From Terriglobia bacterium (GTDB lineage Bacteria; Acidobacteriota; Terriglobia; Bryobacterales; Bryobacteraceae), in NCBI GenBank assembly GCA_020073615.1, contig JAIQEX010000065.1, positions 1 through 36,986 of the forward strand: a DNA stretch of 36,986 nucleotides, in the 5' to 3' direction. The notes below the pieces were generated by a model. It saw only the letters and a list, made by a program, of their open reading frames with translations, was not told where the DNA came from and did not search any database. Of the stretch, positions 19,950 to 36,648 are shown one piece after another. Position numbers and translations under genes: made by a program. Each line of letters begins with the position of its first letter. Position 1 is the stretch's first letter.

Positions 19950-20148
19950 GGGAAGTACGCGCCAGTTGCGGCGCTTCCACTCCGTCGATTGCACACCGGT
20001 CAAATGTGATCACCTGCGTTCCGGCCGCCTCGGCAACCGGCCAGGCAGCTGGCCGAACTCAATTAGTTGACATAATATCCGTTATCAGAAGTTAGAGAAA
20101 CGGCCGCCGCATTCGCCACCCTCTTGACATATTTTTCTACATCGTGCA

Positions 20149-20162
20149 ATCTATGCATAGAT
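20149..20162. promoter_or_regulatory. Palindromic operator candidate for PadR
   Basis: ATCTATGCATAGAT is a perfect 14-bp palindrome 16 nt upstream of the PadR ATG at 20179. TTGACA lies at 20124-20129, about 20 bp before it, and GATAAT, a -10-like hexamer, overlaps its right end (20160-20165). The TTGACA-GATAAT spacing is too long for a classical promoter pair, so the exact promoter is unclear. PadR proteins bind palindromes overlapping their own promoter. Confidence 0.6.
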
Positions 20163-20178
20163 AATCTTGGCATAATAC

Positions 20179-20520
20179 ATGGCGGCTCCTCCCCAAGGCG
20201 ACCTCCTCCCCGGCACCCTCGAGATGCTCATCCTGCTGACGCTCCGCCGCGAGCCGCTTCACGGCTACGCCATCGCGCAGCGCATCCAACAGACCTCCGC
20301 CGATCTCCTCCGCGTCGAAGAAGGCTCGCTCTATCCGGCCTTGCAACGCATGCTGATCGAGGGCTGGGTCTCCGCCGAATGGGGAGTGTCGGCGCGCCAC
20401 CGCCGCGTCCGCATCTACACGCTGACGCCCGCCGGCCGCAAACAACTGACCCTCGAAACGGAGCGCGTGGGCCGTGTGCTCGACGGAATCGCCCGCGTGA
20501 TGCGGCTGGCGGAAGCATGA
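20179..20520 (+). CDS. PadR-family transcriptional regulator
   Basis: This 113-aa winged-helix regulator has GTLEMLILLTLRREPLHGYA, IAQRIQQTSADLLRVEEGSL, YPALQRMLIEGWV and a basic wing RHRRVRIYTLTPAGRKQL, all diagnostic of the PadR family. PadR proteins repress nearby genes, often in response to phenolics or toxic compounds. In Acidobacteriota, PadR genes are typically placed just before ADOP permeases. Its TGA overlaps the ATG of the permease (ATGA at 20517-20520), so it is translationally coupled. A 14-bp palindrome lies just upstream. Confidence 0.93.
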   Translation: MAAPPQGDLLPGTLEMLILLTLRREPLHGYAIAQRIQQTSADLLRVEEGSLYPALQRMLIEGWVSAEWGVSARHRRVRIYTLTPAGRKQLTLETERVGRVLDGIARVMRLAEA

Positions 20521-23132
20521 AACGCATCCTGCGGTACTTCCGGGCGCGCCAGTTCGAACGCGATCTCGCCGCCGAGCTCGAGGCTCATCTCGACGAGAAG
20601 ATCGCTGAGCTGATTGCCGCAGGCATGCATCCGGACCAGGCGCGAGCCCACGCCCTTCGCCACTTCGGCAACCGTACCCGTCTCCTCGAACGCTGCCGCG
20701 AGAAATGGGCCTTCATGCCGCTCGACGAGATCGGCCAGGACGTGCGCTACGCCCTGCGCATGCTTCGCAAGAGCCCGGTATTCACCGCCGTGGCGGTGTT
20801 GTCGCTGACCCTGGGCATCGCAGCCAACATCCTGATCTTTAGCGCCGTGGACAACGTCCTCCTGCGTTCCCTCCCCTACCCCCAGCCCAGACGCCTGTTC
20901 GCGCTGTGGTCCCGCTCCGCGCCGCACGGCGCCGAACCCATGCACGTGTCGGCCGCCGACTTTTACGACTGGCGGGCGCAGTCGCACGCCTTCGAATCGC
21001 TCGCCGCCTACGCAAGCTGGCCGATGAACCTGACCGATATCGACGAGCCGCGCCGCCTCGCGACCGAGCTCGTCTCGGCGAGCCTGTTCGCCACCCTCGG
21101 CGTCCAGGCGCACATCGGCCGCACCTTCGCCCCCGACGAGGATCGCGAGCAGAGCGCCCCCGTGGTGGTCATCAGCCACCGCTTGTGGCGGGAGCTCGGC
21201 GCACCTTCCGAAATCGCCGGCCGTGAACTGACCATCAACGGCTCGCCGGCGACGGTGATCGGCGTCATGCCCGCCGGCTTCGCCTTCCCCTCGCCAGAGA
21301 CCGACGCCTGGGTGCCGCTCGCGTTGAATACCGCCAATCGCTCCAACCGGGAAGGTCGTTGGCTCAAGGTGATCGGCCGGCTCCGCCCCAACATCACCGG
21401 GCGCGATGCGGCCACGGAGATGGACGTGATCTCCCGGCGCCTGGCGGCGGCGTACCCGGCGATCAACACCGGATGGAGCGCGTCCCTCGTACCCTTGCAG
21501 GAGGAGCTGGTGGGCAAAACCCGTCCGATTCTGCTGACGCTCCAGGCCGGCGGCCTGCTGCTGCTTCTCATCGCCTGCGCCAATCTCGCCAACCTGCTGC
21601 TCGCCAGGGGCGCGTCCCGCAGCCGGGAGATCGCCGTGCGGGCGGCCCTCGGAGCAGGCCGCGCGCGCATACTCCGCCAACTGATCGTGGAGAGCCTGGT
21701 GCTGGCCACCCTCGGCGGCGGCTTGGCGCTCGCCCTCGCCACACAAGGCATCGCGCTCGTGAGGACGTTCGGCGCCGGCCTCATCCCGCGAGCCGAAGAC
21801 ATCCACATGAGTAGTCCGGTCGCTCTGTTCGCCCTGGCCGCGACGGTGTTCACCGCGCTGATCTTCGGCCTGGCGCCGGCACTCGACGCCGCGCGCGTCG
21901 GCCTCCGGGCGCATCTCGCTTCGGCGGCGCGCGGGACGCCCCGCGACCTGGAACACAAGCGAGGACTGCTGGTTTCGATCGAGATCGCGCTGGCATCCAT
22001 CCTGCTGGTCGCAACCGGTCTGCTGGGCGAGAGCCTCGTGCGCCTGCTCGCGACCGCACCGGGATTGCAAACCGGCCACGTGCTCACCATGCGGCTCGCC
22101 TTGCCGCGATCGAAATACCCCACCAACGCGGCGCAGATTGCGTTCTTCCAGCAGCTTCTCGAACGCGCGCAGAGCCTGCCGGGCATCGCCGCCGCCGGGG
22201 AGATCAGCGATACCCCGCTCGCCGGCAACAACCCCACCTTCGAGTTTGTGGTCCAGGGTGCGGTCCGCGGCCCATCCGATCCGCCGCTCCAGGCCGGCCT
22301 GCGCGTGATCAGCGCGGGTTATCTGCGCGCCGCGGGAATCCCGCTGCGCAAGGGCCGCGACTTCACCGCCGCCGATCGTCCCGGCAGCATGCCGGTCGCG
22401 ATCGTCAACGAAACCATGGCGCGCCGCTGCTGGCCCGGCGCCGATCCTTTGGGGCGCGCCGTACGCCTCAAGGAAGACCAGCGCTGGATGACCGTCGCCG
22501 GCGTGGTCCCCGACATCAAACACATGGGCCTCAAGGCCGACGAAGGACCGGTCGTCTATACTCCGTACGCGCAGAAGACCCAGGAGTGGCTGGCGTGGAC
22601 AACCCTCCTGGTGCGCACCGCGGGCGAGCCCATGGATTTCGTGCCCGCCGTCCGCAACGCCATCCGCGGCCTCGACAAGAATCAGCCCGTGGCGGAGATC
22701 TCCACGCTCGAACGGTCGCTCGCGCGCTCGACCGCGGTGCCGCGCTTCACTACCCTGGTCATCGGCGTAGTGTCCGGCTTGGCCCTCCTGATTGCGGTCG
22801 TCGGGGTCTACGGCTTGCTGGCCTACACGGTGGCGCGGCGCATGCCCGAGCTGGGGATCCGGCTGGCGCTCGGCGCATCGCCGCGGCAACTGTCCTGGCT
22901 CCTGCTGCGGCAGGCGATGGTGCGCGTGCTCGGCGGAGTCGCCGCCGGCCTCGCCGGCTCCTGGTGGTTGGCACACTGGCTGGAAAGCCTGCTCTTCGGT
23001 GTGCGCCCGCACGACCCCGCGACCTTCGCCGGTGTCGCGGCCGTCCTGCTCCTCGCCTCGCTGGCCGCGGTCCTGGCCCCCGCCCGCCGTGCCATGAAGA
23101 TCGACCCGACGGCCGCTCTGCGGGCCGAGTGA
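20517..23132 (+). CDS. ADOP-type ABC transporter permease (MacB/FtsX-like)
   Basis: This 871-aa protein has the acidobacterial ADOP architecture. An N-terminal soluble prefix (about 1-80, RYFRARQFERDLAAELEAHL, HALRHFGNRTRLLE) is followed by a first membrane helix (about 88-112), a MacB-like periplasmic domain, an FtsX permease region (about 335-450), a second periplasmic domain, and a final FtsX region (about 745-865). The C-terminus reads LFGVRPHDPATFAGVAAVLL to RRAMKIDPTAALRAE. These permeases work with ABC ATPases in macrolide or lipid/peptide efflux. No ATPase gene is adjacent, so an unlinked ATPase must supply energy. A 144-bp near copy of its 3' end recurs at 27528-27671. Confidence 0.93.
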   Translation: MKRILRYFRARQFERDLAAELEAHLDEKIAELIAAGMHPDQARAHALRHFGNRTRLLERCREKWAFMPLDEIGQDVRYALRMLRKSPVFTAVAVLSLTLGIAANILIFSAVDNVLLRSLPYPQPRRLFALWSRSAPHGAEPMHVSAADFYDWRAQSHAFESLAAYASWPMNLTDIDEPRRLATELVSASLFATLGVQAHIGRTFAPDEDREQSAPVVVISHRLWRELGAPSEIAGRELTINGSPATVIGVMPAGFAFPSPETDAWVPLALNTANRSNREGRWLKVIGRLRPNITGRDAATEMDVISRRLAAAYPAINTGWSASLVPLQEELVGKTRPILLTLQAGGLLLLLIACANLANLLLARGASRSREIAVRAALGAGRARILRQLIVESLVLATLGGGLALALATQGIALVRTFGAGLIPRAEDIHMSSPVALFALAATVFTALIFGLAPALDAARVGLRAHLASAARGTPRDLEHKRGLLVSIEIALASILLVATGLLGESLVRLLATAPGLQTGHVLTMRLALPRSKYPTNAAQIAFFQQLLERAQSLPGIAAAGEISDTPLAGNNPTFEFVVQGAVRGPSDPPLQAGLRVISAGYLRAAGIPLRKGRDFTAADRPGSMPVAIVNETMARRCWPGADPLGRAVRLKEDQRWMTVAGVVPDIKHMGLKADEGPVVYTPYAQKTQEWLAWTTLLVRTAGEPMDFVPAVRNAIRGLDKNQPVAEISTLERSLARSTAVPRFTTLVIGVVSGLALLIAVVGVYGLLAYTVARRMPELGIRLALGASPRQLSWLLLRQAMVRVLGGVAAGLAGSWWLAHWLESLLFGVRPHDPATFAGVAAVLLLASLAAVLAPARRAMKIDPTAALRAE

Positions 23133-23361
23133 GCGCCATCAGTAGGGTAGCCTGCCCTCGCCCCAAAGGCGCGCTCCGCGTGAGGCCAGGCCGCGAGCCC
23201 CATCAGCGCCGACCGCGCTGATTCCTGGCGAGACCTATCTATCGGTGCCGCAGCACATGTCAGTAACGCGCGTTATACGACCAAGTGACCTTGCGAGGTT
23301 TGCGCTGGACTCCTAAACGCTACGCGACTACTCGCGGGTAATCGGACACGATGCGACGCTT

Positions 23362-26300
23362 TCAGGTTCGTGCTGCCTTGCGGGTAGCGTCGGCTGTCGC
23401 TGTGACAAGCACCTCAGACAGGCCCTCTTCCTCCTCAATCTTGAGTTGTCGTTCGATCGCTCTTTCTGTCCTGCGAACGGCATCTTGCGCCCACTTTCGT
23501 ATCCACGGATCTTGCTCGTTCGCCCAACTCTGGAGGACATCGCGTTGCCTCTTTAGACGTTCCGAGTAGGGGCCCCACCAGATACCCGTCCCCAGACTTG
23601 CGAGCACAGAGTTCAAGAGCTCCTGGTCGTCTGGAAAAGCCTTCAACATCGCGCGGAGCCTCTCGGGCATTGGTGCTCCGTCAACTACTATCAGCCTTGC
23701 CGCCATTGACCGCGCCAACGGCGAGTGTGATTGCGCCCACTGGACAAGAGTTTTGGGGGATACGAGATCGCCATACCAGTGCTCGAGAGCGAATAGGAGA
23801 CGGTAACGACCAGGCTGGCGGTCGAGCAATGCGCTGGACACCACGCCAAAGACGCCCTCGGCGTCAGCCGCAGTCGCAGCGGCGAGAACGGCGCGGCCGG
23901 TCGCGCGAAAGTGTACCCAGGACGACTCCTCCTCCATCCTGCGAAGCGCCAATGTAGCTGCTCGCTTCGGCTCAACCCGGGCGAGGGTTTTTGCAAGTTC
24001 ACCCCAGTGCCACTCACCGGCAAAACGCGACATTGTAACTGGCCTCTCCAGCGCATCCCAGATAAGATTGCGGTAATCGTCGGCGGCACGGGGTCCCTTT
24101 GTCACCCAGTCGTGCAGAATTGACAACGCTACAGCCGTCAGAGCCTCGTCGTTCCGGTCGAGCAATCTCTTCACGAGTGCGCACCTTTCGGAGACCGGAA
24201 GGGAAGCGGCCCAGCCACCGAGCATCAGGAATTGAAGGGCCTGGCAAGGTACCTGGCCGCCGTCGATCAAGTTCAAGATACGCTCGCCCGCCGCTCTCGT
24301 GGCAGGACCTCGACAGGTGGCGCCGAAGGCCAGTATAGGCCGGATGCCGGCCAACTCGTCGCACACCTGGTCCCACAATGACTCTTTCGAAGATCCAAGG
24401 CCGGCAGCGTAAGCGGCAAGAAACACACAATTCACATCATCTGGAGAGATCTCAATAATTCTTTCGAGGTAGCGTTGGTCAGTGTCAAGCTCGCCCAAGC
24501 GCCTGCCGAACGGCCATACATTCTCCGCCTCTCGCGAGGCTAGCCATTTCAGCTCTGCATCCCCAAGTCCTTGTTGGTATGCCCTGTCCGCCAGCCTCAC
24601 TACGTTCGAGTCGGCATTGGCATAGCCTTCCCCACCTGCCAAGTCGAAGTCGGCCTGCAACCGGGGTCCCACCCATCGCTTCAATTGACCATCGAGGTCC
24701 TCGCCGAACGCGGCGTTCAGCCATCGCTGTAGAGCAGCCTGCTGCAGTTCGGAAAGATCGGGCCCACCGTGCTGGAGAATCCAGCCAGCGGCGTCTGCCC
24801 TTGATCGAACCTGTTCGGGAGATCGTGGCGTAGCGGCTTCGAGAACTTCGACAGCATCATCTGCCAGACCATCCATCGCCAAATCAGAGGCGCTGTCGAT
24901 TAACGCCTGACGGGCGGAGTCGGATGCCTCGTCTGAACCGTTGGACAACCCAACGAGATAACGAACCGCAGCCCGGCAGGCGTTTCGAAACTCCTCGGTC
25001 GTGTGCGGACGCCACTCGCGTGGATAGTGCCGACGTGAAACTGAATCCTCGTCGCCTCCGATTCGGATTACATGTCTCGACAAAGCGGCGGCGGCGGCCT
25101 TCACCGCAAGTTGCCGGGCAAACGAATCGTTAGATCCCGCAAGCTCGTCGAGAAGCACCAGACGCTCAAAGAACGGTATCGGACTTCCGCTCAAAAAGGG
25201 ATGAAAGTATCGGCAAAAAATGGCTGTGGCGTTATTGGCGAAGTTCTCGGTTTCCGCCAGGGCGAGTTCACGAAGGCAACGAGCCGCTTCCAGGGAAGTT
25301 TCGGGCCACCGCAGTAGCGACTCTAATGCCCACATAACATTGCGGCGGCCGGAATTAAAAGAAAGAAGCCTCGATTTGGGTGTGCCGGCCAGTATTTTGG
25401 TCAAGACCTCGATGGCGGCCCGTGGCAGGCCTGCGCTTAGAATCGAGAAGATTTCGCTCAGGAACTGCTGGTCGAGGTCCTCAATGGTCTTAAAGAGACC
25501 GTCGTCGGCAAGCATTCGCTCCACCGCTTTTCGGACTTCCCGGTGTTCGGCCATCATCACCAGCCGCAACAACAGATGCCGCCGAGGTTGGTCACCCGGC
25601 AAATCGCCGGCGATGCGAATCAAGTCGGCCCCGCGTTCGTCCCATAACTCTGCCGCCGCCTTGATCGCCAGAAGGTCGGGCGAAACGTAAAGGTACCGCC
25701 CGCGGGGGAGTACAATGCCTTGATCTTTCAACTCTCTGACACTACGCTGCATTTCGCCAAAGTCCAAGCCCACGGCTTTGGCAAGCGCTTTGGCCTCTTC
25801 ACGAACCTCATCTTCCCAACCGACCCGCGATAGCAGCGAAAGTGCCTCAAGCGTCTGCGCGGTTCCCTTTGGCACGAACTTCTTGAGAACCTGCCGCACG
25901 TCGCCGATTTGACGCAGCTCTACAAGAGGTACATTTTGCTTGGCGAGGATTCGCGAGACGAAAAGGGCTAGTTTGACGTAACCGCCGGATACCCGGACGG
26001 TGGTGCTCACGATTTCCAGCGGGAACCGATCGGCTGCCCCTTGCAAGATGGTCCTGATATCGCCATCGCCGAGTGGAAGCACCTGGTAGATCTTGGTCAG
26101 TCCCGAACGCAAGGGCGCAAGGATCTCGGCCGGCCCAACACAGATGAGCCTTAGCCTGGGGCCCGCAAGCCGCGCGTAGCGCATGAGCACTTCCTGCCGG
26201 TCCGACGTGCACTCATCGACGACCATGATTCCCCGCGTGGAGACATCGGATTGAACTGACGCAAGGAAATCCTGCACCTGTGGTGCCTCGGCATCCGGTG

Positions 26301-27027
26301 CGTACAGGGTAGCCTCAGAGACACCTCGTTCCGAGAGCGATTCCAAAACCAGACGGGATTTCCCAACCCCAGCCATGCCTTCTATTCGCAGAATGTTTTC
26401 CTCACCTGGCGATGAGACGAAGCTACGAACAGCGTCAATGATTTCCTTCCGACTGGGGTCGGCAAAGTATTCATTTTGGAACAACGGGTCCTGCTTCCAC
26501 TGATTGACGGTCGCGAATCCGTGAAGAGGTTTTCCAAACTCCGGCAGGATCGGGATCGCCAGATGCCGGGACGCCCAGCGAGCCATCTGATCTCCATACA
26601 GGATCTTGCACCGCGAGACCGGGAGTTTCCTTAGCCTGCAAAGTCGTGCGATCTCTTTTTGGTGCTTATCGCGGGTGGGAACTACGTAGTCGTGAGCAAC
26701 CAGGAGGAGATAGTTTCCGCCTCCGCGAAGGGTCCGCCGCACTCCCGGTTTGCCAAATTCCGTTGCCAGTTGGGCCACGGTGAGTCGGCCGGATTTATAC
26801 TGTAAAGCGGTCTGGCCAGCGGCCAAGGGGTCATGTGGCGCAGACACTGGCCATTGGACACGCGCGTCGATTCCGGCATCAGGATCAGTATCGCGCGTGT
26901 TTAGTTCGAGGTCCGCCAGTGGAACGCCGTTTTCATTGGCCTCTACTATAAGCAGAGCATTCATTACTTTCCGAAGCTGATGATTGTTCAGCTTGGCTAC
27001 ATCGTCGCCGTCAAGGTGCATACGCAT
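23362..27027 (-). CDS. Avs-like antiviral STAND NTPase with N-terminal nuclease domain
   Basis: This 1,221-aa protein appears to combine three parts. Residues 1-160 resemble a PD-(D/E)XK nuclease: DPDAGIDARV (Asp54) then QYKSG (Gln76, Lys78), with the spacing expected of the D...(E/Q)xK motif. Residues about 190-450 form a P-loop STAND-type NTPase, with Walker A GMAGVGKS (217-224) and Walker B GIMVVDECT (D271). The rest (about 450-1221) is almost all short helices (for example AALSRHVIRIGG, AAYAAGLGSSKES, ALSILHDWVTKG), like HEAT/TPR-type sensor repeats. Nuclease-STAND-repeat proteins of this plan are the Avs antiviral family, which bind a phage protein and then cut DNA. Antiphage function is inferred. 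Composition is less GC-rich than flanking genes. ATG 27021 is an alternative start, and no clear SD is seen. Confidence 0.7.
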   Translation of the reverse strand: MRMHLDGDDVAKLNNHQLRKVMNALLIVEANENGVPLADLELNTRDTDPDAGIDARVQWPVSAPHDPLAAGQTALQYKSGRLTVAQLATEFGKPGVRRTLRGGGNYLLLVAHDYVVPTRDKHQKEIARLCRLRKLPVSRCKILYGDQMARWASRHLAIPILPEFGKPLHGFATVNQWKQDPLFQNEYFADPSRKEIIDAVRSFVSSPGEENILRIEGMAGVGKSRLVLESLSERGVSEATLYAPDAEAPQVQDFLASVQSDVSTRGIMVVDECTSDRQEVLMRYARLAGPRLRLICVGPAEILAPLRSGLTKIYQVLPLGDGDIRTILQGAADRFPLEIVSTTVRVSGGYVKLALFVSRILAKQNVPLVELRQIGDVRQVLKKFVPKGTAQTLEALSLLSRVGWEDEVREEAKALAKAVGLDFGEMQRSVRELKDQGIVLPRGRYLYVSPDLLAIKAAAELWDERGADLIRIAGDLPGDQPRRHLLLRLVMMAEHREVRKAVERMLADDGLFKTIEDLDQQFLSEIFSILSAGLPRAAIEVLTKILAGTPKSRLLSFNSGRRNVMWALESLLRWPETSLEAARCLRELALAETENFANNATAIFCRYFHPFLSGSPIPFFERLVLLDELAGSNDSFARQLAVKAAAAALSRHVIRIGGDEDSVSRRHYPREWRPHTTEEFRNACRAAVRYLVGLSNGSDEASDSARQALIDSASDLAMDGLADDAVEVLEAATPRSPEQVRSRADAAGWILQHGGPDLSELQQAALQRWLNAAFGEDLDGQLKRWVGPRLQADFDLAGGEGYANADSNVVRLADRAYQQGLGDAELKWLASREAENVWPFGRRLGELDTDQRYLERIIEISPDDVNCVFLAAYAAGLGSSKESLWDQVCDELAGIRPILAFGATCRGPATRAAGERILNLIDGGQVPCQALQFLMLGGWAASLPVSERCALVKRLLDRNDEALTAVALSILHDWVTKGPRAADDYRNLIWDALERPVTMSRFAGEWHWGELAKTLARVEPKRAATLALRRMEEESSWVHFRATGRAVLAAATAADAEGVFGVVSSALLDRQPGRYRLLFALEHWYGDLVSPKTLVQWAQSHSPLARSMAARLIVVDGAPMPERLRAMLKAFPDDQELLNSVLASLGTGIWWGPYSERLKRQRDVLQSWANEQDPWIRKWAQDAVRRTERAIERQLKIEEEEGLSEVLVTATADATRKAART

Positions 27028-27527
27028 TCACTGGTACCAGCATAGCGGTTCCAATCAACGGTCCGCTTGCCCCCGACATAACGCACCGCTCATGTTTGGG
27101 CGCGATCTGAATGTATTTACGAGCCCTTGAAACGATGAACGGGTACCGCCTGGATGTCTCCTGCGAATGATGGGCAACAGGCTTTAATTTAACCGCGGCC
27201 GAACGGATTCACTCACAGGAGCCGCTGAACAAGTTGCGGGTCGGGCGAGCGTCGGATTGATCGGCTGGCACGCGCCCTGCAACGCCCGTTGCTCACCACT
27301 GGTACGGGGCCAGATCCTCCCTGACAATAGGACTCAATCGGGAGTACCCCGGCGCGATGAAGCCTGAGGAACAAGGTGAGGCTGAACGCCGGGTCACTCC
27401 CGATTGAGCCGTTCTGACGGCGTAGCGTTTACAAATCCAAGTTGACGGGTTGTCGACTCGCGGATGTGCCTGCGACCGGCGCCTGGGAGCTGAACGCGCG
27501 GCAGCCCGCGAACGCGGCCACTCGCTG
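27028..27527. other. 500-bp gene-free stretch beside the Avs-like gene
   Basis: I see no gene with family features here. The stretch holds the putative promoter of the Avs-like gene (minus strand) and the inverted repeat at 27333-27408, and it ends at the ADOP-like fragment. Small open frames are present on both strands, but none has recognisable family sequence. Confidence 0.6.
27333..27408. repeat. Inverted repeat, 13-bp perfect arms
   Basis: CTCAATCGGGAGT (27333-27345) and ACTCCCGATTGAG (27396-27408) are perfect inverse complements, 50 nt apart. No transposase gene lies between them. It could be a folding RNA structure, a recombination site or the relic of a mobile element border. It lies between the Avs-like gene and the ADOP fragment. 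Confidence 0.6.
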
Positions 27528-27671
27528 CTGCTCTTCGGTGTGCGCCCGCACGATCCCGCGGCCTTCGCCGGTGTCGTGGCCGTCCTGCTCCTCGCCTCGC
27601 TGGCCGCAGTCCTGGCCCCCGCCCGCCGTGCCATGAAGATCGACCCCACAGCCGCTCTGCGGGCCGAGTGA
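27528..27671 (+). pseudogene. 3'-end fragment of an ADOP permease gene
   Basis: These 144 bp match 22989-23132, the end of the intact ADOP gene, with six mismatches by my count (about 96% identity). They encode the same C-terminus, LLFGVRPHDPAAFAGVVAVL to RRAMKIDPTAALRAE, including the stop codon and a few bases after it. Upstream of 27528 the similarity ends abruptly, so the other 95% of a permease gene is missing. It may be a relic of a second permease copy, or a duplication made when the Avs-like gene entered. The fragment has no start and is not expected to be translated. Confidence 0.88.
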
Positions 27672-27750
27672 GCGCCCCCGGCAGTGCACCGCCGCCGCGC
27701 ATGTCTGCCCGCTTGAGACTTCGCGGTAGAATGCCTTTGCAGGACAACCC

Positions 27751-30852: not shown

Positions 30853-32172
30853 TCACGCAGGCGAGCGAGACTCGCTGAAGTGTTCCTGCTCGATCTTCAC
30901 GCCCCCCTGGAGCAATTGGCGAATAAGACTCAGGAGTACTGGAATATCGTCACCAGCCAGACCAGAGACTTCCGTTTGCATCTTCCGTAGCGCCCCTCGT
31001 TCTGTTTGGGTCAATGGGCTTCCTTCCGAGCATTCCGCCGCAATCCATTCCGCTGTGCTCCGAAACACATAGAGTGGCCGGCCCAAACGCGATCGCAGGT
31101 GCAAGAGAATTCGCAGACCACCCACGTCGGCGTCGCCCCAATGACGGAAAATCGCCTGCGGATTCCGCTGTCCGAGCGATACCAGCGCGGAGGTGAGGGC
31201 AGGTGTGGGAAACCCGCCCGTGTAGACGACCAGTTCTCCAGTGCTGCCCACGGCCGCGGACCCGCCGTGGGACTCGATATACGAAAGAAACGGGTATTCG
31301 TTTTCAACGGTGGTCACGGTTGCAAGACCGGCGTTCGTAGCCGCTTCGACAAATGCCTCCGTCCAGGATTCTGGCAGATGAGCAACGGGTGTGAAATCGT
31401 CTAACTCATACGTCCGGCCGTTTATGTGAAGCGAGCCGCGGCCCGCGCACTGGATGAGTGCAGGACGTCGGCGTACCCCATAGGCTTCCAGAAGGTCTGC
31501 CGTTGAGATCTGTGATACGCCCTCCCATCGCGGATCCATGCGGACGAGCAAACTCGCAGTCAAATCCCGGACTCGGCTCAGTGTTTTCGAGTTGCCGAAG
31601 ATGCGGTCACTGATAATCCGCTCGTATGCCGGCGCGACGCCATTGGCAAGCGCCACGGCCGCGGTCAATGCCCGGCAAATGTTGGGGTACTCCAATTTGA
31701 GGCGCTGGCGGCTCACTCCAAGTAGCGACGCGTCGAGCCTCCGCAGTGCTGGCACGAGTTCGTGAAAATATGCGAAGACGAAACCAGGACCGCTCAGAAC
31801 GGATGCTACCGAGCTAATGGCTTCGAACGCCTGTGCCAAGCGGAAGTATCCTAGCGAATCCGCCGCCCGGTAGGCCGCATCCAGTTGCGCTGAACCCAAA
31901 CGTAGTTCTTTCGGCTCGCCGCGGAGAGGCCCACGTGAATGCCGCACAATTCGGAGGCAGCCGTTAGCTTCCAATTGCGCCGCCGCCGCGGACAGCGTCG
32001 TCAGGAGTTCGTAGCCCTCCGGAGCGAAGGCGTCCGGAAAGGACCGTTCGTCCCAGAAGAGGGTGGGTTCCCGCGCCCACCCGGATGGCTGGCCAAAACA
32101 GACGCCCCGTTCGTAGCGATCAAGAAGACCGAACAGAAGTCTGCGGTGCGGTTGATCCGGAGAAATCGTCAT
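30853..32172 (-). CDS. jetD: Wadjet system protein JetD (Toprim-like nuclease)
   Basis: This 439-aa protein has the JetD layout: an N-terminal helical part (DUF3322-like, about 1-220) and a C-terminal Toprim-like domain (DUF2220). Toprim residues are visible: Glu290 in TTVENEYPFLSYIE and the D347-x-D349 pair in FRHWGDADVGGLRILLHLR, with YTGGFPTPAL between. In Wadjet, JetD is the nuclease that cuts circular plasmid DNA once JetABC has extruded it. The gene seems intact, and its start at 32172 overlaps the end of jetC by about 53 bp. It is the last gene of the operon jetA-jetB-jetC-jetD. Confidence 0.9.
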   Translation of the reverse strand: MTISPDQPHRRLLFGLLDRYERGVCFGQPSGWAREPTLFWDERSFPDAFAPEGYELLTTLSAAAAQLEANGCLRIVRHSRGPLRGEPKELRLGSAQLDAAYRAADSLGYFRLAQAFEAISSVASVLSGPGFVFAYFHELVPALRRLDASLLGVSRQRLKLEYPNICRALTAAVALANGVAPAYERIISDRIFGNSKTLSRVRDLTASLLVRMDPRWEGVSQISTADLLEAYGVRRRPALIQCAGRGSLHINGRTYELDDFTPVAHLPESWTEAFVEAATNAGLATVTTVENEYPFLSYIESHGGSAAVGSTGELVVYTGGFPTPALTSALVSLGQRNPQAIFRHWGDADVGGLRILLHLRSRLGRPLYVFRSTAEWIAAECSEGSPLTQTERGALRKMQTEVSGLAGDDIPVLLSLIRQLLQGGVKIEQEHFSESRSPA

Positions 32173-34295
32173 TCGGCACGAAGTCCTTCGTGAAGTCCTC
32201 GACGGAGGCGCGCCCGCTTACGGGATTCTTGTATATAAGAAGAGACCGTTCCACAGCGGGATCCACCAGTTCACATTTTTCCGTAGGTGTCGCAATTACG
32301 AGTTGCAGCCCGAGGCCGCGGGCAAATGAAAGGGCCGCCCCAATGCGGGTGCCGTCCATTTTGGAAAACGCTTCATCCAGCAGAACCAGTCCGCACGAGG
32401 GCCGCCCGCCGCGGGAGCGGCTGCGATACAAGCGAAACATCGAGGCGAAGATCGCGACGTAATACGGCGTCTGGGTCTCTCCCCCGGATGGCGGCACGGT
32501 GCTCGCGAAGTTGTTGCTCGTTATCGACGCACATCACATCCCCGAGAAGGTAATCGCAGTACGTCCGTGCGTACGCGTCTTCAGTGGCCACTTTTTCCGC
32601 CAGTGACCCCTTTTGCGCCCGAAGTCCGGCGCGCTGGAGTTTTTCGATATCAACCAGGCCGACGCCGGAAATAAAGATATCCCGGCCCTGCCACGAATAG
32701 CGCGACTTGTGGCGCTCATAGAGCATCAGGGCCCGACGATAATCTTCTGGAGAAACGATGATGTCGAAACGGCGAGTATGAAGGTAGCCCTCGATGGCGT
32801 CGATCCACCGCAACTCCGCGATCTCGATCAGTTCGCACAAGGGCTTCGGTTGGCGCAGGCCCTGGAGATTTCGCGAGAGCAGGTCCAGCAACGCGGCAGC
32901 GCCATCGGGATAAACCGGGCGGCCTTCTTCCAGTCCCTTCATCTCGCGTCTCAGCTCGCCCGCCTCGTAATCGATGTCGCTGAGTTCGCGCTGTCTTTCC
33001 GCTCGAAGAATATATAGCTGAGCCACGCTCTTCGTAAACGTCTGTTCTAGAAGTCGAATGTCGGCATCAGTCAGGTTTCTCATTGCAGCCACCGCGGCAT
33101 CGAGGCGGGCCAGTGTCTCTGGGGTTGCGCCTCCACCGAAGACTTCCAAACCGCCAAATAATGCACGTAGTGCCTCTCTTTGTTGCACCAATACACCGTT
33201 GAGTTCCTCTTCGTGCGTCCGCGCATCGCGAAGCTGCCGTTCCGTGAACTCCAGGTCTCTATTGATTTCGTTGAGGCGATGGAAGCTTTCGTAGCCTTCC
33301 AGTTGGGTCCTGAGACGAATCAATTCGCGCTCATGTTCCCCAAGCAGGTCTGCAAGACGGGTGACCTCACGTTCCTGCAGTTCGCGCGTGCGGCCCACCT
33401 CTATGATTTCGGCCTCGAGTTTCATGCCGAGTAGTGCCGACTCCTCGTAGTGCGCCCGCAGTTCCTGGTACTTGTGACTGATGGCGACCCGGCGCTCGGC
33501 TTCGATCTTCTCCCCCATCGCCACAATCTGGTTTAGCTCTTCAATCCTGCGCTGCGCATCTCGCGCTTCTGCCTCCAGCCGCTTATAGTGTTCCAGGTTC
33601 GCCTGCAAAGCCGCGGTATCGACCGGTTTTGGGTCTAAGAGATAATCGAACACAAACTGCCGCACCTGTCCAAGGGGCTTGAATGCCAGCGCCTTGACGA
33701 GTAGCCGGTGGAAGGTCGCGGGCAAAGCCCCGAGGCGGTGCCGAAGTTCCTCCCGGTAACTTCCTACGTCGTTCCACAACACAACATGCCGGGTGCGCAG
33801 CCACATCCGGAAATCCTTGAGGGGAACTACCCGCGGCGCGCCGGAGACAAGATCCGGGATAACCGCTTCGATATCGGCTATTCCAAGATCCGGCTCGATG
33901 AAACACGTCTTGGCAATGGATTGCTCTGAATCCCCGGATTCAAAGCCGATTCCGCAGGTAAATCCGGTACCATCGTCCCCATCGTCGCGGAACTGGAGCA
34001 GCACATAGGAGGTGCATGGATCGCGCCCGTATCGGACTGCGCCCGGTCGAGCCTCGTCTTCCGAGCTCTGCTTCCAGCGCAGATATCCGTATAGAGTCCG
34101 TTTGCTGTGTTCATTCGCGGCGCGATTGAGACGGAAGTCGTTTCCATCGGCTACCAGGGCCACCTGAATCGCGTCCAGAACGGTGCTCTTGCCGCAGCCG
34201 TTGTCTCCGAAGAGCAGGCAACTGCGGCCCACCGGAAGAGTCTGGTCCGCAAAGTGATACCACTGGATCAGACGCACAGCTTCAAGCAGTTTCAT
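32120..34295 (-). pseudogene. jetC: Wadjet SMC-like protein JetC, internally deleted and frameshifted
   Basis: From ATG 34295 the frame gives 603 residues with the SMC Walker A (LLFGDNGCGKST, about 28-38), a long coiled coil (about 240-420) and part of the hinge side (ISGVGLVDIEKLQRAG), up to LREHRAAI (32489-32487). The sequence then jumps to another frame, which continues SGGETQTPYYVAIFASMF, the SMC signature motif, Walker B GLVLLDEAFSKMD, and a tail to the stop at 32120 (122 residues). An intact JetC has about 1,100 residues, so about 380-400 residues (the return coiled coil) are missing at the junction near 32486-32490, in addition to the frame change. The first frame would end at 32373 without the signature motif and Walker B. 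JetC is therefore presumably non-functional. Confidence 0.85.
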
Positions 34296-35013
34296 CGGCT
34301 TCGCCCTCCGAGCCGGATGACTCTGCGTCGGCTTCCGGAGACAGGTTGAGCGCGCCTTCGGACGCAAGCGAGCCGGCATACTCCCGGAACCGCTGTTCCA
34401 ATTCCTCGATGAGGTGCGGTGGCAGGACTTTCTCGATGAGAGGAGCGATAAAGATCTTCTCGTCGTCCCGTGCTTCGAAACCTCGTGGAAGCCGCACGAG
34501 CGAGTGCCGGGCGAACCGGCGCAGTGGATCCAAAATAACGTTTCGTGAAAGCTGTGTGGCCCGCCGGCCGGCCTGCGCCAATCGCTCGCGAAGCATTCCC
34601 ACCGCAATCTCGCAATCCAAATCCTCGGATTCGGAAAGGGTCCGCATCTGCTCGTGATAGTAGAGACGGAGAAAACAGAGGAGAAGGCTTTCGAATTTCG
34701 AGAACCGCACGCGCTGCGCACCGGCCTCGTGGCGGGCACGGGCGAGGCGCAACGTTGCATCGTACTCCAGTTGCCATCCGCCAATCCGCAGATACGAGTC
34801 GATCAGCGTCGAGTAACGCTCCGCGAATCGCCAGTCCGGATCGGGTTTCATGGGGCTGCCGGGTGTCAAGACCTCGCCGCTCAGTAGGCGCGTGACGGCC
34901 TTGCGGAACTGTTCTCGCTGCGCGCTTTCTAGATTGGGAAAGTGGTCGAGGAATTCCAAATCAACGCTCCCGGCCCTTTGAGCCCGCTGCGATATGGCCC
35001 GCCGGGTATTCAT
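34282..35013 (-). CDS. jetB: Wadjet system protein JetB (kite-like)
   Basis: This protein of about 243 aa matches JetB (DUF4194-like, a KITE-type winged-helix protein). Landmarks are FRKAVTRLLSGEVL, YLRIGGWQLEYDATLRLARA, FSKFESLLLCFLRLYYHEQM, and VRLPRGFEARDDEKIFIAPL. JetB binds JetA and JetC to complete the loop-extruding motor. The C-terminus is acidic (ESSGSEGEADETA). The ATG at 35013 gives a 53-bp overlap with the end of jetA; the frame is open to 35136, but the extension lies inside jetA and lacks support. The end overlaps the jetC start by 14 bp. The gene is intact. Confidence 0.85.
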   Translation of the reverse strand: MNTRRAISQRAQRAGSVDLEFLDHFPNLESAQREQFRKAVTRLLSGEVLTPGSPMKPDPDWRFAERYSTLIDSYLRIGGWQLEYDATLRLARARHEAGAQRVRFSKFESLLLCFLRLYYHEQMRTLSESEDLDCEIAVGMLRERLAQAGRRATQLSRNVILDPLRRFARHSLVRLPRGFEARDDEKIFIAPLIEKVLPPHLIEELEQRFREYAGSLASEGALNLSPEADAESSGSEGEADETA

Positions 35014-36460
35014 AAAGACCAGACCGAAGCCGTCCCTCTTGATGGACGACGTGGAATGAAGACCGGCCATCGAGGCCATACTGAGTGATGAACAGAAGGC
35101 GCAGATACTCTTCGTCGCTGGCCACTGGCAGCTCATCGATTCCGATGCTGCTTCGGCCGTCCAATAGAGTTGTCACATACTCCTGAACGCGTTTGCGGCT
35201 AAACCGGCGCTGTATCCTTCCAGCCATTCGGCGGCGGATTTCGTGCGGGCTTGCAGCCGGCGACACATCCAGCAACTGCGCACCGGCAGCGACGCGCTGG
35301 CGCGGGGATCTATACAAGAAGTCGTCCCCGATTAGCTCGCAGCGATAGAGGTCGACGTCTAGTTCGAATGTGGGCGTAGAGTCTCGCACAAGCATTTCGA
35401 CGAGGTATTCGAGTTGAGATTCGATGAGGCGATCCTGATACAGAAGATAGCGCAGCCGGCGGAGGGCAACCCCGGAGAAGCGGGCGTTCCGGACGTCGAT
35501 GCTGTCAAGTAGTGCGGGCACCGCGTCGAACTGCGAACGTATCAGGTCCAGATCGTGGCGGACTTCGGCCGCGGCCTGGGCGAGGGACAAACCACGCTGC
35601 TCTGCAAGCCATTCGGCGGCGCTGTTCAACGCCAGGTCGTCGCGCTCGATCTCGGAAAGACGGCGGAGGATAGCGGAGCGTTGGCGGTAAACATTGTCAA
35701 CTGTCTTGAGCCGGTGATAACTCGCCATGATACTCCGCTGATAGCGGTCCAGTCCTTCTTCCAATACCGCGAAGGCCGAGGCGGCTTCATCAAGCACCCG
35801 TTGCGTGAAAAGGTGAATGTTGCGTTCGAGAATCTTGAGTTCCCTCACCAGTTCCAGAGTCTGCTTTCGTGCCTCGCCCAGAGCAATGCCTGGTTGGCGC
35901 GCGAACGAGGGGCCATCGAGGACCGCGGCAATCGCATGGACATATCCCTGAAAAATCGGCTGCTCGTCGCGGGCCACCCTGAGCAGAGCTTCCATGATGC
36001 GGGCCGCGGCCGGATGGAACCCCATGATATCGCCGACGCCGCTGCGGTATTGGAAGTGGATCCACCCGCTGCGCTCCAGTCGGCCAATCAAGCGCCGCGC
36101 CAATTGACGGATAAGTTGTTGTTCTTCGGTAAGCCCTGTATCCGCTGCCGCCGATCGGTTTCCGGAGAGCATGGACGTACGCAATCCGGTTCGCGGCTGC
36201 GCGGGATCCACTTCCCCGGCCATCGGTTCTCGGGCCAACTGTTCCAATTCCTCACGCCGCGCTTGCCATGTCGAAGATTCGCGGATAATCCGTTCCGCCA
36301 TTTCAACCGTGCTCGAACGAGTAACAGGAAGCGGCTCGCCTTCGAATTCGCGGCAGTAGAGGGCGGCCAGGATCTCCCAATAGAGCGCCGCGTGCGGGTC
36401 GCTCAGTGGCCCGAAGAATCCCCGGTTCACGCGATCAAAGAGATGGGGAACGAAATCCAT
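34961..36460 (-). CDS. jetA: Wadjet system protein JetA (kleisin-like)
   Basis: This 499-aa protein is the first gene of a jetABCD-ordered operon. It has the JetA (MksF-like kleisin) features: N-terminal MDFVPHLFDRVNRGFFGPLS and HAALYWEILAALYCREFEG, a long helical middle (about 150-380, with LERNIHLFTQRVLDEAAS and RQRSAILRRLSEIERDDL), and a C-terminal winged-helix-like part. ATG 36460 is favoured since the N-terminus then matches the family start; the frame is open to 36517. JetA bridges the JetC heads. I could not assign a Wadjet type. The gene is intact. Confidence 0.85.
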   Translation of the reverse strand: MDFVPHLFDRVNRGFFGPLSDPHAALYWEILAALYCREFEGEPLPVTRSSTVEMAERIIRESSTWQARREELEQLAREPMAGEVDPAQPRTGLRTSMLSGNRSAAADTGLTEEQQLIRQLARRLIGRLERSGWIHFQYRSGVGDIMGFHPAAARIMEALLRVARDEQPIFQGYVHAIAAVLDGPSFARQPGIALGEARKQTLELVRELKILERNIHLFTQRVLDEAASAFAVLEEGLDRYQRSIMASYHRLKTVDNVYRQRSAILRRLSEIERDDLALNSAAEWLAEQRGLSLAQAAAEVRHDLDLIRSQFDAVPALLDSIDVRNARFSGVALRRLRYLLYQDRLIESQLEYLVEMLVRDSTPTFELDVDLYRCELIGDDFLYRSPRQRVAAGAQLLDVSPAASPHEIRRRMAGRIQRRFSRKRVQEYVTTLLDGRSSIGIDELPVASDEEYLRLLFITQYGLDGRSSFHVVHQEGRLRSGLYEYPAGHIAAGSKGRER

Positions 36461-36648
36461 CCGCAATAGTGTATCTAACCACAACCGTGCCATCGGACGC
36501 TCGGGCCCAGGGGTCAAACTCGGTCACAAGTTTCTTTCCCTTCATTTCCATTGCCTTGCCCGCAAACCGCGCCACCCTCCCCAGCCCCCGTGCTAACGTG
36601 AAATCGTGGAAGAGGCCTTGCGCACCACCGCATCGCCCCGACAAGTTT

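Follow-up and report, generated by a model that had tools for sequence, protein, structure and literature searches.

What is the single large gene at positions 23,362 to 27,027 of this stretch, and what could it do for its host? The window, that is, the whole stretch of DNA that was analyzed, comprises 36,986 nucleotides of contig JAIQEX010000065.1 from the Terriglobia bacterium assembly GCA_020073615.1 (Bryobacteraceae). An earlier note on the window had described the gene as an Avs-like antiviral candidate that might represent a new branch. The protein is a distant relative of the catalogued PD-Lambda-4_A protein and not a new type of system. From its sequence and its models, it is probably a stand-alone receptor resembling the nucleotide-binding leucine-rich repeat (NLR) proteins. 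It would act against phages or other mobile elements and end infection through DNA cutting and abortive infection. Its activity against phages is something that we infer.

The open reading frame (ORF) was verified as 1221 aa on the minus strand (27027..23362), with an ATG start and zero internal stops. The plus strand, read in the same frame of 23362-27027, has stops throughout. The gene and the parts of its product are as follows.

23362..27027, minus strand: the single gene, 1221 aa, with an Mrr-type nuclease domain, a STAND nucleoside triphosphatase (NTPase) and an alpha-solenoid; PD-Lambda-4_A homologue
26533..27006, minus strand: predicted N-terminal nuclease domain, residues 8-165, PD-(D/E)XK type and Mrr-like (A6 alignment, hhalign, helix and strand order of the model)
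26866..26868, minus strand: D54 codon, end of the DxGxD motif, directly before a predicted strand
26794..26802, minus strand: Q76-Y77-K78 codons, end of the next predicted strand
25858..26472, minus strand: STAND NTPase domain, residues ~186-390 (fold and profile matches to STAND/NLR proteins)
26356..26379, minus strand: Walker A, GMAGVGKS, residues 217-224, with G217, G220, G222 and K223 invariant
26206..26226, minus strand: Walker B, MVVDECT, residues 268-274
24892..25848, minus strand: family signature region, residues 394-712, a winged-helix-like part and the first solenoid repeats
23365..25590, minus strand: C-terminal alpha-solenoid (HEAT/ARM-like), residues 480-1221, presumed ligand sensor (model, fold lists)

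The 1221-aa protein has no Pfam domain above cut-off and no NCBIfam match. Rfam gave no match, ARAGORN found no tRNA, and promoter and terminator scans were at or below shuffle level.

The family of the protein was identified through PADLOC. Two PD-Lambda-4_A models matched, PDLC03991 (E 1.7e-31, 107 bits) and PDLC03990 (E 6.8e-11). The third and last row up to E 10 was JetD (15.7 bits, E 0.0014, 55 residues), although the scan's filters drop most matches above about 0.1. None of these three families is Avs. The PADLOC library includes Avs models, so the protein, although its layout is Avs-like, was not found to belong to Avs1-5. A new Avs type was rejected as a family claim because the PADLOC family is PD-Lambda-4_A, and the idea of an unfamiliar new branch finds no support in view of this match to a catalogued protein. 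The likeness is co-linear, with profile positions 6-327 and 423-744 matched in order by the N-terminal and middle parts of the protein, and the sizes are close (1221 aa and 1283 profile positions). The best match to the profile lies in residues 394-712, which contain the motifs RR...WALE, AExExxxNNAT and WxPxT. Alignment A1 has 10 members, among them the window protein, and all match PDLC03991; one of them (L022) had been fetched with the PD-Lambda-4_A model. However, the window protein is a distant member. Its 107 bits compare with 773 for L017, from the same class, and 600 for L065, from an Enterobacter plasmid, and it stands across a well-supported split from both in a quick tree. In this tree of 47 rows, it groups with L026 (100) and with the IMG/VR contig L060 (89), and L017 and L065 lie beyond a starred split; the tree has long branches and rows of odd letter make-up.

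The N-terminal domain is most likely an Mrr-type PD-(D/E)XK nuclease, judging from its motif, its profile and the order of its modelled elements, and DNA cutting is predicted for it. The residues D54, Q76 and K78, which had been singled out as nuclease-like, are present and conserved among relatives. In the ungapped rows of a 37-row alignment, D50 is kept in 33 of 35, G52 in 33 of 35, D54 in 32 of 34, Q76 in 31 of 34 and K78 in 32 of 34. This alignment includes the window protein; L054 and L062-L064 were dropped beforehand and gapped rows were set aside. The relatives in its rows were picked by a Walker A pattern. Thus, Walker A conservation is circular here, and conservation of the nuclease motif is not a selection effect. 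For comparison with a 30-row N-terminal alignment (A6), 20 Mrr_cat domains were extracted from the same bacterial family, and 18 were used after the two least motif-like (L114 and L122) had been set aside. With hhalign, the two sets aligned at E 4.4e-6 and a probability of 86.7% over 114 columns, with DGGxD and QxK in register. A longer alignment (A2) gave E 3.8e-5 and 70.9%, and the sensor alignment, a negative control against the same Mrr set, gave a probability of 0.25%. The profile comparison is therefore in line with the nuclease-like part that had been proposed. The QxK motif had been considered an unusual variant. This was rejected, because the Mrr_cat domains of the same bacterial family carry the same DGGxD...QxK and QxK is thus the usual Mrr motif.

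The model of residues 1-480 (mean predicted local distance difference test, pLDDT, 90.6; predicted template modeling score, pTM, 0.90) contains a helix at 15-32, strands at 40-42, 55-59 and 71-78, helices at 84-91 and 94-101, a strand at 105-110, a helix at 116-132 and a strand at 140-143. Such an order is that of the PD-(D/E)XK nuclease core. D54 precedes one modelled strand and QxK ends the next. Compared with the Mrr_cat restriction nucleases (PF04471), the domain shares the DGGxD...QxK motif and a co-linear profile. Unlike them, it is fused to a STAND switch and a solenoid and is too divergent for the Pfam model. Mrr-like effectors of the restriction endonuclease fold have already been described in NTP-dependent conflict systems, according to excerpts of PMC7159879.

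By its motifs and its model, the next domain is a Walker A/B P-loop NTPase with a predicted STAND/NLR fold. Both Walker motifs were found at the residues where they had been placed. A Foldseek search with residues 1-480 ranked Avs3 first (8dgc, E 1.1e-8), the STAND sensor 6mfv second (1.1e-8) and Avs4 third (8dgf, 3.4e-8). A wheat NLR followed, mixed with Orc/Cdc6, CED-4, clamp loaders and Apaf-1. For residues ~165-480, VIA-align gave 6mfv (Z 14.4, root-mean-square deviation (rmsd) 5.7, 267 aligned), NRC1 (Z 14.2, rmsd 4.9, 270 aligned), NRC2 (Z 13.5, rmsd 4.9, 271 aligned) and Apaf-1 (Z 12.6, rmsd 4.9, 283 aligned), with other AAA+ proteins such as ClpA from 11.6 downward. A profile search of PDB sequences agreed, and its first three rows were 6mfv (E 0.0011), NRC1 (0.0016) and NRC3 (0.008). 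When the single 1221-aa protein was searched against PDB sequences, only chance matches were found. The plant NLRs NRC1 and NRC2, Apaf-1 and the archaeal STAND sensor 6mfv share the STAND NTPase core with the window protein (Z 12.6-14.4). Their effectors and sensors are different, so the resemblance is confined to the switch.

The fold list also contains the regulator MalT (8bob, Z 11.3, rmsd 5.7, 283 aligned). The protein could thus be imagined as a MalT-like regulatory STAND protein with a decayed nuclease domain. This is very improbable. The motif residues are intact, and each of D54, Q76 and K78 is kept by 31 or more of 34 ungapped rows. Pfam revealed no regulator domain that binds DNA. 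In addition, the distribution is patchy, with a match in nine of 200 genomes of the same bacterial family, the window's own counted.

The proposed layout of nuclease, STAND NTPase and helical-repeat sensor as in Avs is supported by the ranks of Avs3 and Avs4, which share all three parts. The helical repeats themselves are borne out by the model of residues 375-1221, a nearly all-helical solenoid (mean pLDDT 86.6, pTM 0.71). The differences from Avs3 and Avs4 are the size (1221 aa, where the Avs chains have 2028 and 1541 residues), the lack of a PADLOC Avs match and the sensor fold lists, both of which are led and filled by HEAT/ARM proteins (best Z 11.4). The C-terminal sensor of Avs proteins is of the tetratricopeptide repeat type; for the window protein, an alpha-solenoid is predicted. 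According to excerpts of PMC12931631, Avs1-4 respond to the packaging proteins of phages, and the DNA of both phage and host is cut.

The probable mechanism can be outlined on these grounds. In the general STAND scheme, a ligand is bound, ATP drives oligomerization and an effector is activated. The resting protein, probably a monomer with bound ADP, would be kept inactive by the STAND NTPase. The HEAT/ARM-like solenoid would bind a ligand made by the invader, probably a phage protein. ATP binding would then drive oligomerization and bring the N-terminal Mrr-type domains together, and D54 and K78 would participate in metal-dependent DNA cutting. Infection would be stopped through destruction of phage DNA and probably host DNA, as in abortive infection.

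Mrr itself is a restriction enzyme of modified DNA, and the Mrr-like N-terminal domain could also serve an NTP-dependent, type IV-like restriction in which foreign DNA that is modified or structured is read by the solenoid and cut directly by the Mrr-type domain, with survival of the cell. Two of the 102 scanned ORFs that flank relatives match type IV restriction models. However, the NTPase best matches STAND switches, and no DNA-reading domain was recognized in domain searches. Type IV-like restriction is therefore considered unlikely, and a receptor with an abortive outcome is preferred.

The PD-Lambda-4 system presumably needs both its A and its B genes. PD-Lambda-4_B (PDLC03992) was found in none of 15 genomes including that of the window (G000), none of three viral records and none of 31 genomes or plasmids. 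The sets of 15 and 31 partly overlap, and an E. coli positive control matched in all three scans. As PD-Lambda-4_B was not found in the A-bearing genomes tested, the window gene is regarded as a stand-alone A-type homologue and not as a PD-Lambda-4 system. PD-lambda-4 is not named in the available portions of the text of Vassallo et al. (PMC9519451), so its gene content was taken from the PADLOC model names and a table in the accessible part of PMC10952713. No description of the mechanism of the A protein was found in the literature searched.

Several observations weigh against the receptor reading. The N-terminal domain has no clear Pfam nuclease match, as the best Mrr_cat E was 0.15 and occurred in one of 30 N-terminal domains. 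Its profile found no solved nuclease among PDB sequences; it matched the short chain NF3 (E 0.0019), in the second half of the domain only and outside the motifs. The fold list for residues 1-480 hardly bears on the nuclease part. The sensor matches are generic HEAT/ARM, and their best Z of 11.4 is below the ~13 that helical models can reach without kinship. Without a PD-Lambda-4_B partner, the E. coli system may be unsuitable as a model of the window protein. The neighbors of the relatives add little. PADLOC was applied to 102 of 144 flanking ORFs (the two nearest per side; L032, L050, L056, L062, L063 and L064 were left out), and type I and type IV restriction, AbiEii, Dsr2 and others were matched, which would hint at defense surroundings. 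There were 84 families for these 102 ORFs and 25 for 88 control ORFs from 20 stretches of the window's genome, which differs from the genomes of the relatives, and this is not clearly above control. The control ORFs too had defense-like names (DpdF, ShosA, PsyrT). Since families and not ORFs were counted, the comparison is rough and not decisive, and since control ORFs also matched PADLOC, the neighbor matches were given no weight.

The relatives are widespread. The closest is a copy in an Acidobacteriia metagenome-assembled genome (MAG), with 53-54% identity and its N-terminus missing in the contig (L002 of G186, and L026, which has the same length and the same score). A separate G186 contig has a 182-aa piece that resembles residues 2-180 with 56% identity. 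Other relatives have ~20-29% identity, and L003 (G116) and L030 (an Acidobacteria record) are identical copies. Relatives are found in Acidobacteriota, Cyanobacteriota, Chloroflexota, Planctomycetota, Nitrospirota, Pseudomonadota, Bacteroidota, Actinomycetota, haloarchaea and others. No relative was found by single-sequence scans of genome contigs and viral contigs or by tblastn against phage records, and E. coli copies of two relatives were sought at the DNA level without success. Two relatives lie in two overlapping frames, one on a Haloarcula plasmid (L013, 7929-11766) with the break within the NTPase (~residues 300-345), and one in a haloarchaeal MAG (L046, 5983-9710) with the break near residue 545. 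These may be natural two-piece forms or frameshifts. The IMG/VR contigs L061-L064 all have the same match (5872-9579 in L061). In L061, the first 1294 bases match Mycobacterium abscessus phage records exactly, and direct repeats of 39 bp (95%) flank the gene.

In some relatives, the effector appears to have been exchanged. L065, the Enterobacter plasmid protein (6059-10180), matches PD-Lambda-4_A at residues 264-1359, and its residues 18-266 match another PADLOC model, DUF626_VIII (E 6.5e-20). The same STAND and sensor core with a different N-terminal model is as expected of a sensor with an exchangeable effector. Such swaps, with switch and sensor conserved, are predicted for a receptor that couples a trigger to an effector. 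In L058, from Prevotella, QxK is missing in the alignment, where L058 fits poorly. One of 30 N-terminal domains has a weak match to the CAP12/Pycsar TIR model (E 0.0062).

The gene is also bracketed by a direct repeat.

22989..23137, plus strand: repeat copy 1, the last 144 bp (including the stop) of a MacB-type gene plus 5 nt
27528..27676, plus strand: repeat copy 2, an orphan with 96% identity to copy 1 over the 149 bp

The copies agree at 143 of 149 positions, and the source of the repeat is the end of the MacB-type gene at 20124-23132. Comparison of the window with itself at E 1e-3 found no repeat besides this pair. A genome search for a close third copy found none, and the next best matches were 76% over 79 nt and 68%. 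The GC content at third codon positions is 0.63 in the STAND gene and 0.64-0.70 in the Wadjet genes described below, against 0.78-0.85 in seven other genes scored. The gene thus looks like one acquired horizontally, as a 4.4-kb cassette between duplicated MacB-type 3' ends. Such a pattern would arise if a circle had been captured by a single crossover or if integration had restored the 3' end. In a sister genome, what comes after the same MacB end is unlike the window (L095 matches to 1554 only), and in this draft the rhamnosidase gene is on another contig; an empty insertion site would be compatible with this. Among 37 loci of relatives with both flanks, eight have flank-to-flank matches (39-124 nt, 70-95%, one inverted). 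Those of L061 and L062 are alike, and none is both as long and as similar as the window's. The MacB-type permease has many paralogues per genome, with at least 40 matches in the window's genome. A perfect 12-bp inverted pair (17/20 around) is at 23314-23325 and, reversed, 27420-27431, inside the cassette ends. It was noticed post hoc; the window has two such places, compared with a mean of 0.07 after shuffling. Extended to 16 bases, the left copy has a single occurrence in the genome. Transposon ends were unsupported, as no target-site duplication was seen by eye beside the pair.

The gene had also been described as alone, without accessory genes. This stands in so far as no operon partner was found. 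It does not stand for the surroundings, since the repeats bracket the gene and a Wadjet operon is 3.8 kb away.

30853..36517, minus strand: Wadjet operon (jetA, jetB, broken jetC, jetD), a second foreign-looking block, separate from the STAND gene

Of the 1097 positions of the best JetC model, the main ORF covers 1-591, and a C-terminal stretch that resembles the head is read in a different frame. Either genuine decay or a mistake in the assembly could account for the broken jetC. When 144 + 6 flanking ORFs were compared with one another, six pairs were similar (E 1e-5 or better). One strong pair lies next to the relative on two Rhizobium plasmids (66% identity), and another pair is within L028. 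The other four are weak, at 24-29% identity, and at least one of these resembles restriction subunits. No partner gene that recurs across the family was found among these pairs. On the two Rhizobium plasmids (L015, 3801-7919; L016, 3883-7947), a gene of ~1350-1370 codons annotated as a helix-turn-helix regulator is directly upstream of the relative; it is a possible partner in this lineage. In L060 (1173-5486), a 1438-aa repeat-rich ORF adjoins the relative that groups with the window protein. It was taken by eye for a SIR2-STAND protein, and this was withdrawn, as it has a weak LmuA match only (E 3.6e-6). The last PADLOC scan covered seven long ORFs, two relatives and five neighbors.

Wadjet is an anti-plasmid system, and its nearness raises another explanation, in which the window gene defends chiefly against plasmids or other mobile elements, or serves an element that carries it as a guard against competing elements. 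Relatives are present in 27 plasmid records, some of them typed as conjugative, and five are in IMG/VR contigs. However, carriage on an element does not reveal the target. The family is also catalogued under the name PD-Lambda-4, which we take to be that of a system selected with lambda. A chiefly anti-plasmid role is thus judged to have little probability, and a phage-directed receptor is still preferred.

The kinship with PD-Lambda-4_A links an uncharacterized gene to a catalogued defense protein and gives a domain logic of Mrr nuclease, STAND switch and ARM-like sensor, together with the residues concerned. Less expected are the B-less state and its wide spread, the effector exchange and the cassette bracketed by repeats. 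The finding also suggests that a PD-Lambda-4 'A' protein is able to work alone. If it is, many single-gene receptors whose effectors can be swapped would be open to trigger screens. More tentatively, and with doubt outweighing confidence, the PD-Lambda-4_A-like proteins of bacteria and haloarchaea may together make up a very broad class of NLR-like receptors, each encoded by a single gene. They would have a conserved STAND switch, a signature ARM-like sensor and mostly an Mrr-type nuclease, with the effector swapped in some lineages (Enterobacter L065 and possibly Prevotella L058). Such receptors would be independent of B and their ligand would be outside the terminase/portal set, and the window gene would be a horizontally moving cassette of the class.

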